Assembly: GCA_944323445.1 (NCBI GenBank)
Contig: CALUSM010000001.1
Coordinates: 62,001 to 126,000, forward strand
Origin: an uncultured Bacteroidales bacterium
GTDB taxonomy: Bacteria > Bacteroidota > Bacteroidia > Bacteroidales > UBA932
DNA: 64,000 bases
Direction of reading: 5' to 3'
The translations under genes were made by a program, and so were the position numbers. Shown here piece by piece: positions 49,335 to 55,583 of this stretch; the stretch's first letter is position 1; each line of letters begins with the position of its first letter. Below the pieces are notes generated by a model, which made no database searches, was not told the DNA's origin, and saw only the letters and a list, made by a program, of their open reading frames with translations.

Positions 49335-50435
49335 ATGAATCTCAATACATTCAGAATACGCATACTGGACCGGTATATCATCAAGGAGTTCATAGGAACT
49401 TTCTTCGTGGCCCTGCTGCTGATCATCGTCATAGTGATTATCTTCGACATCAGCGAGAAGATAGACGACTTCGTGGACAAGGAGGCTCCCCTCCGCGCCA
49501 TCATTGTGGATTACTATCTCAATTTCATCCCGTATTTCATGAACATGTTCAGTCCGCTTTTCGTGTTCATAACGGTGATTTTCTTTACCTCGAAACTGGC
49601 CGGCAACAGCGAGATCATCGCCATGCTGTCGGGCGGCGTGAGTTTCGGGCGGTTGATGTACCCGTATTTCCTGTCCGCCCTGTTCATCGCAGTGATGAGT
49701 CTGTCGCTCAACCTGTTCGTCATACCGAGCGCCAATGAGAGGCGCCTGGCGTTCGAGGAGCAGTATATCAAAGGCCAGAAGTTCTACAACACCAACCGCA
49801 ACATTCACTATCAGATAGCTCCGGGACAGTTTGTCTATGTCGAGTCCTTCAGTACGTGGAACAATACGGCCTATAAGTTTACGCTCGAGAGCATCCGGGA
49901 CAGCCGGTTGACCCACAAGCTGACTGCCGAGAGCGCGGCATGGGACAGTACGTCAGGGGCATGGCATCTCAGAAACTACACTCTCAGGGACTACAGCACC
50001 TCGCAGCAGCAGATAGTGTCGGGCAAGGAGAAGGATACGGTCATAAGTCTTACGGTGGATGACTTCTACCGCCGGGAGAATACGGTGGAGACGCTTACGT
50101 ACAGGGAACTCGACAATCTGATAAATGTTCAGCGCATGAGGGGGGACAGCATGGTCAAATATTCCCTTATCGAGAAGCACACCCGTTTCGCGGTGCCTTT
50201 CTCCGCCTTTATCCTTACTCTTATAGGAGTATCGCTCTCCTCGAAGAAACGCCGTGGAGGCATCGGCCTGAACCTAGGAGTCGGCATCGCCCTAAGCTTC
50301 TCCTATATCCTGTTCCTGCGCTTCAGCCAGATGTTCGTCATAACCGACACCCTCCCGCCCTGGCTGGCGATGTGGCTGCCCAATATCCTGTACGCGGTGA
50401 TTGCGGCGGTCCTTTACCGCCTTGCTCCTAAATAG
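49335..50435 (+). CDS. LptF/LptG (YjgP/YjgQ) family permease
   Basis: The 366-residue permease has three N-terminal helices (FFVALLLIIVIVIIF, MNMFSPLFVFITVIFF, YFLSALFIAVMSLSLNLF), a periplasmic jellyroll-type domain (IAPGQFVYVESF), and three C-terminal helices starting FAVPFSAFILTLIGVSLSSKKRRGGIGLNLGVGI. LptF/G with LptB extract LPS from the inner membrane. tgt followed by this permease is a common Bacteroidetes pair. The second such permease lies just after alaS as part of a fusion. Confidence 0.9.
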   Translation: MNLNTFRIRILDRYIIKEFIGTFFVALLLIIVIVIIFDISEKIDDFVDKEAPLRAIIVDYYLNFIPYFMNMFSPLFVFITVIFFTSKLAGNSEIIAMLSGGVSFGRLMYPYFLSALFIAVMSLSLNLFVIPSANERRLAFEEQYIKGQKFYNTNRNIHYQIAPGQFVYVESFSTWNNTAYKFTLESIRDSRLTHKLTAESAAWDSTSGAWHLRNYTLRDYSTSQQQIVSGKEKDTVISLTVDDFYRRENTVETLTYRELDNLINVQRMRGDSMVKYSLIEKHTRFAVPFSAFILTLIGVSLSSKKRRGGIGLNLGVGIALSFSYILFLRFSQMFVITDTLPPWLAMWLPNILYAVIAAVLYRLAPK

Positions 50436-50451
50436 TGTGTATTATTTATTG

Positions 50452-50459
50452 TATATTTG
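50452..50459 (+). promoter_or_regulatory. -7 box (TATATTTG) for alaS
   Basis: TATATTTG matches TAnnTTTG, 27 bases before the ATG at 50487. The frame's earlier TTG at 50457 lies inside this box. Confidence 0.6.
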
Positions 50460-50486
50460 CGATTTTGTACTGATCAGCTACGCTAT

Positions 50487-53114
50487 ATGACATCGAAAGA
50501 GATTAGAAAACAGTTCCTGGACTTCTTCGCCTCGAAGGGCCACAGGATTGTTCCCTCTGCCCCGATGGTGGTCAAGGGGGACCCCACGCTCATGTTCACC
50601 AACGCCGGCATGAACCAGTTCAAGGACTGGTTCCTCGGCAACACACCCATACTCTACCCGAGGGTGGCGGACAGCCAGAAGTGCCTCAGGGTAAGCGGCA
50701 AGCACAATGACCTGGAGGAGGTCGGCCACGATTCCTACCATCACACCATGTTCGAGATGCTGGGCAACTGGAGCTTCGGCGACTATTTCAAGAAAGAGGC
50801 CATAGCCTGGGCATGGGAGCTGCTGACGCAGGTCTACAAGCTTGACCCTGATCGGCTCTATGCGACTGTCTGTGAGGGCAGTCCCGAGGACGGACTGGGT
50901 CCGGACCAGGAGGCCCTGGACATCTGGAAGCAGTATCTGCCTGAGGACAGAATCCTCTACGGCAGCAAGAAGGACAATTTCTGGGAGATGGGCGACACCG
51001 GCCCCTGCGGCCCCTGCAGCGAGATACACATCGACCTGCGCGACGAGGCCGACCGCAAGGCGGTGCCCGGCCGTGACCTGGTCAACCAGAGCGACCCCCT
51101 GGTAATCGAAATATGGAACCTCGTCTTCATCCAGTACAACCGCAAGGCTGACGGTACCCTCGAGCAGCTGCCCCTGCATCACGTGGACACCGGCATGGGC
51201 TTCGAGCGCCTGGTGATGGCCGTCAACGGCAACAAGAGCAACTACGACGGAGACATGTTTCAGGACATCATAGCCAGGATAGGGGAGCTCTCAGGACATA
51301 AATACGGAGCGGAGTCCGAGGATGTGGATGTCGCCATGAGGGTGGTGGCCGACCATATCAGGGCCATCTCCTTCTCCATAGCCGACGGTCAGCTGCCCTC
51401 CAACGTCAAGGCCGGCTATGTCATCCGCCGCATCCTGCGCCGTGCAGTGCGCTACGGCTACACCTTCCTGGGCTTCAACGAGCCTTTCCTGTGCCGTCTC
51501 GTACCGGTGCTGGTCGATGTCATGGGCGAGGCCTATCCCGAACTGGCCAGGCAGCAGGCTCTTATCGAGAATGTTATCCGGGAGGAGGAGGAAGCCTTCC
51601 TGCGTACCCTCGCCAAGGGTATCGGCCTGATCAACACTATCATGGAGCGCAATGCTGATACGAAGCGCATCTCAGGCAAGGATGCCTTCACCCTCTACGA
51701 CACCTACGGTTTCCCGATCGACCTGAGCGAGCTGATAGCCCGCGAGCACGGATACAGCATCGACCTGGAGGCGTTTGAGGTCGAGCTGGGCAAGCAGAAG
51801 GCCAGGGCCCGCAACGCCGCAGCCGTGGAGGCCGGGGACTGGGTGGTGCTCAACGATACAGACGAGCACTCCTTCGTGGGCTACGACCTGCTGGAGACAG
51901 ATGTGCAGATAGTCAAGTACCGCACTGTCAAGACCAAGGGCAAGGAGGTCTATCAGCTCGTCTTTGACCGTACTCCCTTCTACGCCGAGAGCGGCGGACA
52001 GGTCGGGGACTGCGGATACATCGTATCTCCTTCCGGCGAGATGATCAGCATCGTCAATACTATAAAGGAAAATAACCTCAGCATCCATATCGCCGACCGC
52101 ATCCCTTCGGAGCCCGAGGCCGGCTTCCACGCTGTGGTGGACGGACAGAAGCGTCAGGAGACGGCCAACAACCACTCGGCCACCCACCTTCTGCACCAGG
52201 CCCTGCGCTCCGTACTCGGAACTCACATCGAGCAGAAGGGCTCCTACGTCTGCCCCGCCTATTTCCGGTTCGACTTCTCCCACTATGAGAAAGTCTCTCC
52301 CGAGAAGCTGCGCGAGGTCGAGAGGATGGTCAACCGTCTGATCCGTTCCGACTTTCCCCGTCAGGAGTACCGCGACATCCCCATCGCCGAGGCCAAGGCT
52401 ATGGGTGCAATGGCTCTCTTCGGAGAGAAATACGGGGACAAAGTCCGCGCTATCCGTTTCGGGGACTCGATAGAACTCTGCGGAGGTACCCATACCGCAT
52501 CGACGGGCCGTATCGGCATGCTCAAGATAGTGTCAGAGTCGGCGGTCGCCGCCGGAGTACGCCGTATTCAGGCCGTCACCGGCAGCTACGTAGAGGATAT
52601 GTTTGACGGGGTAGAGGACCAGATAGCGGCCGTGCGCTCCTTCTTCGAGAATACACCGGACGTGATCACGGCCATCAAGAAACTCGTGGCCGAGAACGAT
52701 TCGTTCCGTCATTCCCTCGAGGAGGTGGCCCGCGAGAGAGCCGCCGCCCTCAAGAAGACTCTGGTTGAGAAGAGCGGGGAGACACCTGCGGGAGTCCGTC
52801 TGTTCACCCTGACAGGAGTGTATTCGCCCGATATTATCAAGGAAGTGGCCTTCGAGCTGCGCAAGGAGAATACCCGTGCCGCTATGGTGGCCGCCATCAT
52901 GACTCCGGACCGCAAGCCATCGCTGCTGATGATGTACACCGACGACCTGGTGGCCGCCGGAGCTCATGCCGGAAAGGATGTCAAGGCTGCCGCTGCCCAT
53001 ATCAAGGGAGGCGGAGGCGGACAGCCCTTCCTGGCCACGGCCGGAGGCAAGGATGCCGACGGTCTGATGGCCGCGCTGACCGCGATGGTTGAATCTGTCA
53101 ATAAGTTGGATTAA
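50487..53114 (+). CDS. alaS: Alanyl-tRNA synthetase
   Basis: The 875-residue class II synthetase starts [18 protein letters not shown]. It has the motif-2 region [33 protein letters not shown] near residue 70 and the editing domain zinc motif [14 protein letters not shown] near 560 with [13 protein letters not shown] near 665. A C-Ala domain ends in [14 protein letters not shown]. The promoter position fixes the start at 50487. It is flanked by two LPS-transport permease genes. Confidence 0.98.
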
Positions 53115-53132: not shown

Positions 53133-55583
53133 ATGAAGAAACTGGACCTCTTCCTGCTTAAGTCGTTTTTCGGCCCGTTCGTGATGACGTTCTTCATCAC
53201 CGTATTCATACTGGTGATGCAGTTCCTGTGGCTGTACATCGACGAGCTGGTGGGAAAGGGTTTGAGTTTCTGGGTCATCATGGAGTTCCTGGGGTGGGGG
53301 TCGGCGACCATCCTGCCTCTGGCCATGCCTCTGGCTACCCTGCTGGCCTCCATCATGACCTTCGGCAACCTGGGCGAGAACAACGAGCTGCTGGCCATGA
53401 AGGCGGCCGGCATATCCCTGCAGAGGATATTTCTTCCGCTGATATTCGTGGCTTTTGCGATAAGTGTAGGTGCATTTTTCGTTTCCAATAATCTTATCCC
53501 TTTGGCTTACAATAAGATATACACACTTCAGTATGATATAGCCAAGACCAAGGACGAGATAAAGATTCCTACAGGTACGTTCTACAACGGCATCGACGGA
53601 TACTCTATCCGGGTGGACTCCCGCAACAAGGAGACGGACATGATGTACAATGTGATGATATACAACCACACCAAGAACAAGGGAAATGTATCCCTGGCGG
53701 TGGCCGACTCCGGTCTGATACGCTCGACGCCGGACAAGAAGTCGCTTATATTCACTCTTTTCAACGGTGTGTCCTACGAAGAGGAGAATGCCCGCAAATA
53801 CAGGGATACCACCTATCAGCTCCGTCAGATTGAGTTCCGGATGCAGGAAGTGGTGATAAAGCTGGAGAACTACGCTTTCCAGAAATCCGAGGAGGAACGC
53901 TACGGCAGTGACATCATGGCCCGTAATCTGGAGCAGCTCCATCATGACCGGGATTCTCTGGGTGCACTTTATGATGAGACTCTGGGGGCCCAGCGCACCA
54001 AGATAGCCTACAATATATCCCTGAATACACCGCGTCAGCTGGATTCGGCTGTCAACAAGGGCTACCGGGAGAATTTCCCTGTCGACACCATCGCGTGGGA
54101 GGACGCCCAGAGCGAGATGGACGCCGTCCTGGAGGCCAAGAAGGCCGTGCAGAAGGCTATCCAGACGGTGCAGAGCTATGACCGTGAGTCATTGCAGTAT
54201 ACTTTTTACCTGCGGCGCATCGACCTGGAATCATTGAGGAAGTTCACCCTTTCTTTCGCCTGCTTCATATTCTTCTTCATCGGGGCACCGCTCGGTGCCA
54301 TCATACGGAAGGGAGGTCTGGGAACGCCGGTCATAGTCTCGGCCCTGTTCTTCGTTCTCTACTGGGTGGTGGACACCTCAGGACGCAAGCTGGCCAGGGA
54401 CGGGGCGATCTCTCCGGAGATGGGCGCCTTCATCTCCACGGCGGTGCTGCTGCCGATAGGCATCTTCCTGACATGGAAGTCCACCAAGGATTCCTCGATG
54501 TTCAATCTGGAGACATATCTGATACCTGTCAAGAAATTTTTTGCGAAACTGTCAATGAGAAAACGTAAGAATGCCGGCTCCACTGACGGACTGTTGAGCC
54601 GTGCCGGCCGGTCAAGGATAGTGTTTATGGGTACGCCCGAGTTTGCGGTGAGTCCGCTCAGGGCGCTTGTCGACGGCGGATACGATGTGGCGGGAGTGGT
54701 CACGGTGCCTGACCGCAAGGCAGGTCGGGGACTGAAGACAGTGCCCTCTCCTGTAAAGGAATACGCCGTGTCGCGCGGACTGCCGCTGCTGCAGCCCGAG
54801 TCGCTGAAGGATCCTGGGTTCCTGGAGGCGCTGAGGGAATGGAATGCGGATCTGTTCGTGGTGGTGGCGTTCAGGATGCTGCCCCGGGCAGTGTGGTCGA
54901 TGCCGCCCAAGGGTACGTTCAATCTGCACGCCTCACTGCTGCCAGCCTACCGCGGTGCTGCGCCTATAAACTGGGCGCTCATCAACGGGGAGACACGTAC
55001 AGGAGTGACGACCTTCCTGCTGGACGAGCATGTGGATACCGGCTCCATTCTTTTTCAGGAAGAGGTGGATATCCTCCCGGACGAGGATTACGGAAGTCTT
55101 TACAGCCGGCTCATGGAGACCGGGGCATCGCTTGTGCTCAGGACGGTCGACGCACTTGGCTCGGGTACTGCCGTGCCCTGTCCTCAGGATGATTCGGACC
55201 TGAGACCGCGGCAGGCTGCAGCGCCGAAGCTCAACCGCGATACTGGACATATGGACTGGAACAGGGATGCGTTCTCCCTGCACAATCTGGTGCGCGGACT
55301 TTCTCCAAGGCCGGGTGCGCACGGAACAGTTGTCCTGGACGGACAGGAGCTGGAGCTGAAGATATACCGTACGGCCGTGCTTTCGGATGCAGAGACGGAC
55401 GCGCTGGGGCTCCGGGAGGATTGCGCCGGAGCGGCTCCGGGGACTGCGTTTACGGACCACCGTTCTTTCATAGCCGTGCGCTGCTGTGACGGGCTTCTGT
55501 CGCTCAAGGAGCTGCAGGCTCCGGCCAAGAAGCGGATGGATGCCAGAAGTTTTCTCGCCGGATGGAGGGGCGCGTCCAGATGA
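53133..55583 (+). CDS. LptF/LptG-type permease fused to methionyl-tRNA formyltransferase
   Basis: A single 816-residue frame. Residues 1-455 form an LptF/G permease: helices near 12-36, 47-78 and 98-124, a periplasmic domain, a helical insert near 250-360 and helices near 370-390, 396-416 and 430-450. After a basic Ser/Gly linker (MRKRKNAGSTDGLLSRAGR), residues 495-816 are a full Fmt: IVFMGTPEFAVSPL, GRGLKTVPSPV, then NLHASLLPAYRGAAPINWAL and HVDTGSIL with the catalytic Asn, His and Asp. Both termini of LptF/G are cytoplasmic, so Fmt would face the cytosol. An internal ATG at 54556 could also start free Fmt. Confidence 0.9.
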   Translation: MKKLDLFLLKSFFGPFVMTFFITVFILVMQFLWLYIDELVGKGLSFWVIMEFLGWGSATILPLAMPLATLLASIMTFGNLGENNELLAMKAAGISLQRIFLPLIFVAFAISVGAFFVSNNLIPLAYNKIYTLQYDIAKTKDEIKIPTGTFYNGIDGYSIRVDSRNKETDMMYNVMIYNHTKNKGNVSLAVADSGLIRSTPDKKSLIFTLFNGVSYEEENARKYRDTTYQLRQIEFRMQEVVIKLENYAFQKSEEERYGSDIMARNLEQLHHDRDSLGALYDETLGAQRTKIAYNISLNTPRQLDSAVNKGYRENFPVDTIAWEDAQSEMDAVLEAKKAVQKAIQTVQSYDRESLQYTFYLRRIDLESLRKFTLSFACFIFFFIGAPLGAIIRKGGLGTPVIVSALFFVLYWVVDTSGRKLARDGAISPEMGAFISTAVLLPIGIFLTWKSTKDSSMFNLETYLIPVKKFFAKLSMRKRKNAGSTDGLLSRAGRSRIVFMGTPEFAVSPLRALVDGGYDVAGVVTVPDRKAGRGLKTVPSPVKEYAVSRGLPLLQPESLKDPGFLEALREWNADLFVVVAFRMLPRAVWSMPPKGTFNLHASLLPAYRGAAPINWALINGETRTGVTTFLLDEHVDTGSILFQEEVDILPDEDYGSLYSRLMETGASLVLRTVDALGSGTAVPCPQDDSDLRPRQAAAPKLNRDTGHMDWNRDAFSLHNLVRGLSPRPGAHGTVVLDGQELELKIYRTAVLSDAETDALGLREDCAGAAPGTAFTDHRSFIAVRCCDGLLSLKELQAPAKKRMDARSFLAGWRGASR

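Follow-up and report, generated by a model that had tools for sequence, protein, structure and literature searches.

In-frame fusion of an LptF-like permease to methionyl-tRNA formyltransferase in one family of Bacteroidales

Can a subunit of the lipopolysaccharide exporter and the enzyme which formylates initiator tRNA be encoded by one gene? This question is raised by a locus in the window, that is, the whole stretch of 64,000 nucleotides analyzed here. In translation of the window a single frame runs from the ATG at 53133 to the TGA at 55581-55583 through 816 codons, with no stop between them. The first-pass annotation had read it as an in-frame fusion of a complete permease with a complete methionyl-tRNA formyltransferase (Fmt), and both parts of this claim were borne out: three Pfam domains score over their curated cut-offs in the 816-residue product, the permease match is near full length, and both Fmt domains are present with their key residues kept. 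The window gene is a genuine in-frame fusion, conserved among relatives (Table 1).

Table 1. Coordinates in the window of the fused gene, its parts and the expected partner gene.
Feature	Coordinates	Strand	Basis
Fused lptF-fmt gene	53133..55583	+	816 codons plus stop TGA; open in 18/18 fmt-positive genus genomes
LptF/LptG-type permease half, residues 8-449 (helices 1-3, periplasmic part, helices 4-6)	53154..54479	+	Pfam PF03739, PDB match, hydropathy
Codon Glu85, aligns with coupling-helix E84 of E. coli LptF	53385..53387	+	Alignment
Basic linker, residues 450-493	54480..54611	+	(S/T)TDGxL(S/N)R in 15/18 genus sequences; pN/pS 0.37
Linker in-frame ATG, best candidate internal Fmt start	54555..54557	+	Same place in 9/18 genus sequences
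Linker in-frame TTG, second candidate internal start	54594..54596	+	Sequence
Fmt catalytic domain, residues 495-671	54615..55145	+	Pfam PF00551; TIGR00460; 1fmt, E 2e-57
NLH motif, codons N597 to H599 (N108 and H110 in E. coli Fmt)	54921..54929	+	Alignment
Codon D635, equivalent of D146 in E. coli Fmt	55035..55037	+	Alignment with 1fmt
Fmt C-terminal domain, residues 699-810	55227..55562	+	Pfam PF02911
Separate LptG-like permease, expected partner of the LptF half	49335..50435	+	Pfam LptF_LptG over cut-off

The N-terminal half matched Pfam LptF_LptG (E 4e-73; 246.8 bits against a cut-off of 27.9) over positions 3-353 of the 353 in the profile. Hydropathy regions at residues 4-42, 53-81 and 86-126, then at 365-396, 390-418 and 426-450, give three plus three helical regions around the periplasmic part. 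The PDB matches of this half were LptF chains of LptB2FG structures (for example 6mit_F, E 1e-11). Residue Glu85 is invariant in 54/54 fused proteins; the E. coli LptF residue to which it aligns, the coupling-helix glutamate E84, matters for assembly with LptB according to PMC5082905. The NCBIfam LptF model TIGR04407 gave 149 bits, under its curated cut-off of 230, and the LptG model gave less (98). On these scores we file the permease half as an LptF-like member of the LptF/LptG family and not as a TIGR04407 equivalog.

With LptF (YjgP), the LptB2FG subunit, the half shares the Pfam family across its length, the helical pattern and the coupling-helix Glu; a candidate LptG-like partner gene lies 2.7 kb upstream of the fused gene, in the same orientation. 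It differs from E. coli-type LptF chains in being about 100 residues longer between the periplasmic strands and helix 4, in staying under the NCBIfam LptF cut-off, and in a C-terminus which bears Fmt. In the established LptF topology this C-terminus is expected in the cytoplasm. AlphaFold modeling of the whole chain with 16 close rows gave a mean pLDDT of 55.8 overall. The Fmt blocks lay mostly at 70-90; most permease residues were under 50, and the helix pattern there fits at low confidence.

Two further features of the permease were observed. LptF from other Bacteroidales families (L146, L147, L148 and L149, from genomes G054, G058, G052 and G036) measures 626-681 aa from the match start, with 150-200 residues past helix 6 that include further hydrophobic stretches; after helix 6 the fused chains continue into Fmt, and most adjacent split pairs have a short basic tail only. 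At codons 17-37 (53181-53243) synonymous variation is very low (observed/expected 0.15-0.34 in 12-codon windows, 14 Coprenecus sequences), which hints at an extra DNA or RNA signal.

Around the fused gene lie the LptG-like permease gene and alaS, and a gene for thiamine diphosphokinase follows. The LptG-like product scored 181.6 bits with the LptG model TIGR04408, against 143.6 with the LptF model; the curated LptG cut-off is 240. The gene alaS sits between the LptG-like and the fused gene (49335-53114). The fused stop overlaps a possible thiamine diphosphokinase start (ATGA, 55580-55583), so three functions may be translationally coupled.

In the C-terminal half, Pfam Formyl_trans_N at residues 495-671 (E 3e-37) and Formyl_trans_C at 699-810 (E 1e-18) both exceed curated cut-offs, as does the NCBIfam fmt model TIGR00460 (233.1 bits, cut-off 201.5), and PDB matches included E. 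coli Fmt, 1fmt. The equivalents of the catalytic E. coli Fmt residues N108, H110 and D146, and of the loop arginine R42, are invariant in 54/54 fused proteins. The half is therefore like Fmt in both domains, in these four residues and in its score; unlike Fmt, its N-terminus is joined to a membrane permease, and some members have no start codon of their own. ArnA, among the PDB matches, also carries a Formyl_trans domain within a bifunctional chain, and serves as an analogy for fusion only: it formylates a sugar nucleotide, and the domain to which its formyltransferase is joined is soluble, unlike that of the window protein.

How strongly has each part been held by selection? Across 14 of the 18 Coprenecus sequences pN/pS ranged from 0.05 to 0.24 over the permease parts; the linker gave 0.37, and the two Fmt domains 0.26 and 0.37. 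By these ratios both halves and the linker are under purifying selection, and the value for the linker argues that it is read as protein. Both halves look functional on domain content and key residues, and we infer that both are active.

The closest named relatives are Candidatus Coprenecus genomes and Bacteroidales bins, with 65-84% identity for the 15 fused ones. According to PMC8035907, Coprenecus is the GTDB genus CAG-831 of family UBA932 at release 95; NCBI taxonomy gives Rikenellaceae incertae sedis. Here f1 denotes the family in a later GTDB release and g1 the genus Coprenecus. Relatives with both domains in one chain, for which the first-pass annotation had proposed a search, proved numerous. 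Among 19 genomes of the genus, the window's own included, 18 gave an fmt match and 18/18 of these were fused; G005 had no match. The family survey took in 249 genomes, an even sample of a larger group (G031 came from a separate search). At E 1e-40 an fmt match was obtained in 230 of them, and 106 were fused and 124 not, a frame of at least 600 aa around the match being counted as fused. Since contig ends truncate some of the 124, the figure of 106 is a minimum.

By genus, the fused state was found in 18/18 genomes of g1, 23/24 of g14, 29/29 of g15, 29/30 of g46 and 3/3 of g16, and in the small samples of g3 (1/1), g5 (1/1), g2 (1/3) and g47 (1/3). The g14 and g46 exceptions (G203 and G250) have frames which begin at contig ends. 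Fused frames are thus present in nine genera, four of them (g2, g3, g5 and g47) on one genome each, and the suggestion that the fusion belonged to the window's own lineage was too narrow.

An even sample of 149 Bacteroidales held 143 genomes with fmt, of which three were fused, all of f1; in 148 Bacteroidota, 147 had fmt and the only fused genome was the window's own. The Fmt frames of two distant Bacteroidota, G725 and G702, have 457 and 523 aa and may be other fusions or mere long open frames. A search of 393 Bacteroidales with the whole protein at E 1e-125 matched 13 genomes, over both halves in four f1 genomes and in G048 of another family, where the genes are parted by stops. For comparison of the joint, 84 loci were chosen by hand, non-randomly, to span genera, and both halves were sought directly; 54 were fused and 30 were not.

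A stop near the joint in relatives had been named beforehand as evidence against the fusion, and none of the 18 fmt-positive genus genomes has one. One stop within the match in each of four members (G013, G015, G017 and G018) was considered as a split state and rejected, since it is the gene end: it lies 808-811 codons past the start and downstream of the Fmt domain, and no stop interrupts the linker. The same architecture, open in 18/18 genus genomes with an fmt match, together with the pN/pS of the linker, speaks for more than chance or error.

From which arrangement did the fusion arise? In 22 of the 29 unfused family rows lptF lies directly before fmt on the same strand. Two more have lptF about 1.2 kb off, and five have no lptF in the fetched stretch, which in two of these held less than 1.4 kb of upstream DNA. 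Adjacent pairs, for example in g4, g11 and g42, resemble the fused gene in order, strand and both proteins; they differ in having two frames, with the lptF stop and the fmt start overlapping or close, and two proteins. The pairs overlap in 18/22 cases, by 1 to 31 bases, and lie in different frames in 21/22, when the start codon nearest the Fmt motif in the usual range is taken as the true one. With 21/22 in different frames, a small indel where the genes meet is required to fuse them; losing a stop would not be enough. Of the first-pass proposal that a stop was lost between adjacent genes, the adjacency therefore stood and stop loss alone did not. In g47 the split G064 and its near relative G099, the one fused genome there, differ at the junction by a four-base gap and substitutions.

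Parsimony on a tree built from the two halves but not the linker required at least five changes of state (78 of the 84 rows, the six without an lptF half of 300 aa being left out), and six changes on Fmt alone (84 rows); parsimony is blind to gains versus reversals, and the trees were made by a quick method. A single origin of the fusion was rejected by the AU test (p 0.0002) when 53 fused rows were constrained to one group apart from the remaining 21 (20 split rows and the fused G099), with G048, G061, G023 and G024 excluded. By these trees the joint has formed, or been lost, on more than one occasion within a single Bacteroidales family. The deepest branches are split, which makes the fusion the derived state, with later splitting possible.

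The reading we favor, at a probability of about 0.7, is a bifunctional fusion: an LptF-type subunit of LptB2FG whose cytoplasmic C-terminus would run via the basic linker into the sole Fmt found. Neighboring lptF and fmt genes, mostly overlapping and out of frame, would have been brought into one frame by a small indel at the joint, and this joining (or its reversal) would have occurred more than once within the family. We infer translation as one chain, membrane tethering of Fmt, and formylation at the membrane. Linkers among fused proteins have 27-44 residues (about 40 in our explanation of the window-type product), a length which would leave Fmt mobile near the membrane. The tether itself is most likely tolerated rather than needed.

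Is a free Fmt encoded elsewhere in these genomes? At E 1e-40 no separate second fmt was found in the fused genomes surveyed. Each gave one match save G208, where two fragments matched, each at the start of a contig (query 2-130 and 112-321), and several fused genomes, such as G063, G082 and G268, are 98-100% complete. In the window's genome, where a free copy had been thought worth seeking, none was found. A second PF00551 match there, in a 216-aa frame, was rejected as a second fmt: the matched stretch scores 62.7 of the 201.5 bits required with Fmt, and its best model is PurN (138.5 bits, just under the cut-off of 150.1). This genome is 89% complete, so a missed free fmt is possible in that one genome. 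With no other Fmt found, initiator tRNA would probably be formylated mainly by an enzyme tethered at the inner membrane, one copy per LptF. Two deformylase matches over cut-off in the window's genome fit an active formylation cycle.

The main alternative is one transcript with two products, in which internal initiation or proteolysis in the linker frees a soluble, formylating Fmt; we consider it possible, though clearly the less probable course. The linker is of a kind that a protease could cut. It was described as basic from the start, and this was confirmed across 54 fused relatives (net charge +3 to +12, median +7); it is also little conserved, as the alignment of linker sequences between genera has no invariant position. 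The (S/T)TDGxL(S/N)R stretch of the Coprenecus linkers is absent from three members of the genus and from the other fused genera. Internal starts give the alternative further ground. An ATG lies at -25 in 9/18 Coprenecus sequences and at -13 or -14 in 7/18, and one stands at -9 or -12 relative to the Fmt motif in 10/13 g46 sequences. With an ATG kept in g46 and in part of Coprenecus, internal initiation could produce free Fmt in both, in g46 above all, and in the window the linker ATG and TTG could likewise serve as starts. Just before the window's ATG there is a slight dip in synonymous variation (observed/expected 0.74, codons 457-474), and AAG AAA TTT TTT is nearly invariant in the 14 sequences.

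However, this dip is far weaker than that at the 5′ end of the gene, and internal starts do not keep to one position. Where the fetched stretch includes lptF, unfused rows have a start codon 6-16 codons before the GTPEF motif in 25/25 cases (one row from another family), ATG in 23 of them. Fused rows have one in 28/54 (ATG in 18), and the other 26/54 have neither ATG, GTG nor TTG in this range, which suggests that the separate Fmt start has decayed there. In seven of the 54, from four genera (one g1, three g14, two g15 and one g3), none of the three codons occurs from -40 to -5. Fmt in these seven probably exists only as the fusion, and a free form would need an unusual start or proteolysis. 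With a start that shifts and is absent from some linkers, internal initiation as a general rule was rejected as unsupported.

Could the tether have a function of its own? Membrane-bound Fmt would then connect lipopolysaccharide export with initiator-tRNA formylation or with one-carbon supply. Four well-sampled genera retain the fused state, and it is spread over several branches, which is consistent with such a role. Yet overlapping neighbors make such fusions easy, the split sisters g4, g9, g11 and g42 live without fusion, linkers of different genera do not share a conserved sequence, and nothing was found linking both activities; we regard this alternative as unlikely. Similarly improbable is its widest form, in which a whole group of gut Bacteroidales would carry out all initiator-tRNA formylation on the exporter at the inner membrane, and the tether would keep initiation, or local production of membrane and envelope proteins, in step with lipopolysaccharide export.

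That a sequencing or assembly error joined two genes, an option left by the first-pass annotation, can practically be set aside: although the named relatives are titled as metagenome bins, and the fused state of G099 and G019 (from genera with split members too) rests on one genome each, the joint is open in 106 family genomes of nine genera, the linker is under purifying selection, and 17 other genomes of the genus refute such an error for the window.

A search of titles and abstract openings in the open-access literature found no description of an LptF-Fmt fusion; PMC4378268, in the portion available, concerns Fmt loss and a different fusion. As both protein families are already known, what is new is the architecture and not the type of system. 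Fmt is the sole NCBIfam model over its cut-off on the chain, so automatic annotation may name the protein Fmt only and hide the exporter subunit.

In 106 of the surveyed genomes of this family, a single gene thus encodes two conserved housekeeping proteins of unrelated processes. The series within the family, from adjacent to overlapping to fused, offers a clear case of overlapping genes turning into fusions. If the chain stays whole, it would be a natural membrane-tethered initiator-tRNA formyltransferase, and would raise the questions of whether soluble formylation is necessary and whether initiation is coupled to envelope building. The host group consists of gut bacteria, in which a single chain, if true, would tie the start step of protein synthesis to the cell envelope.
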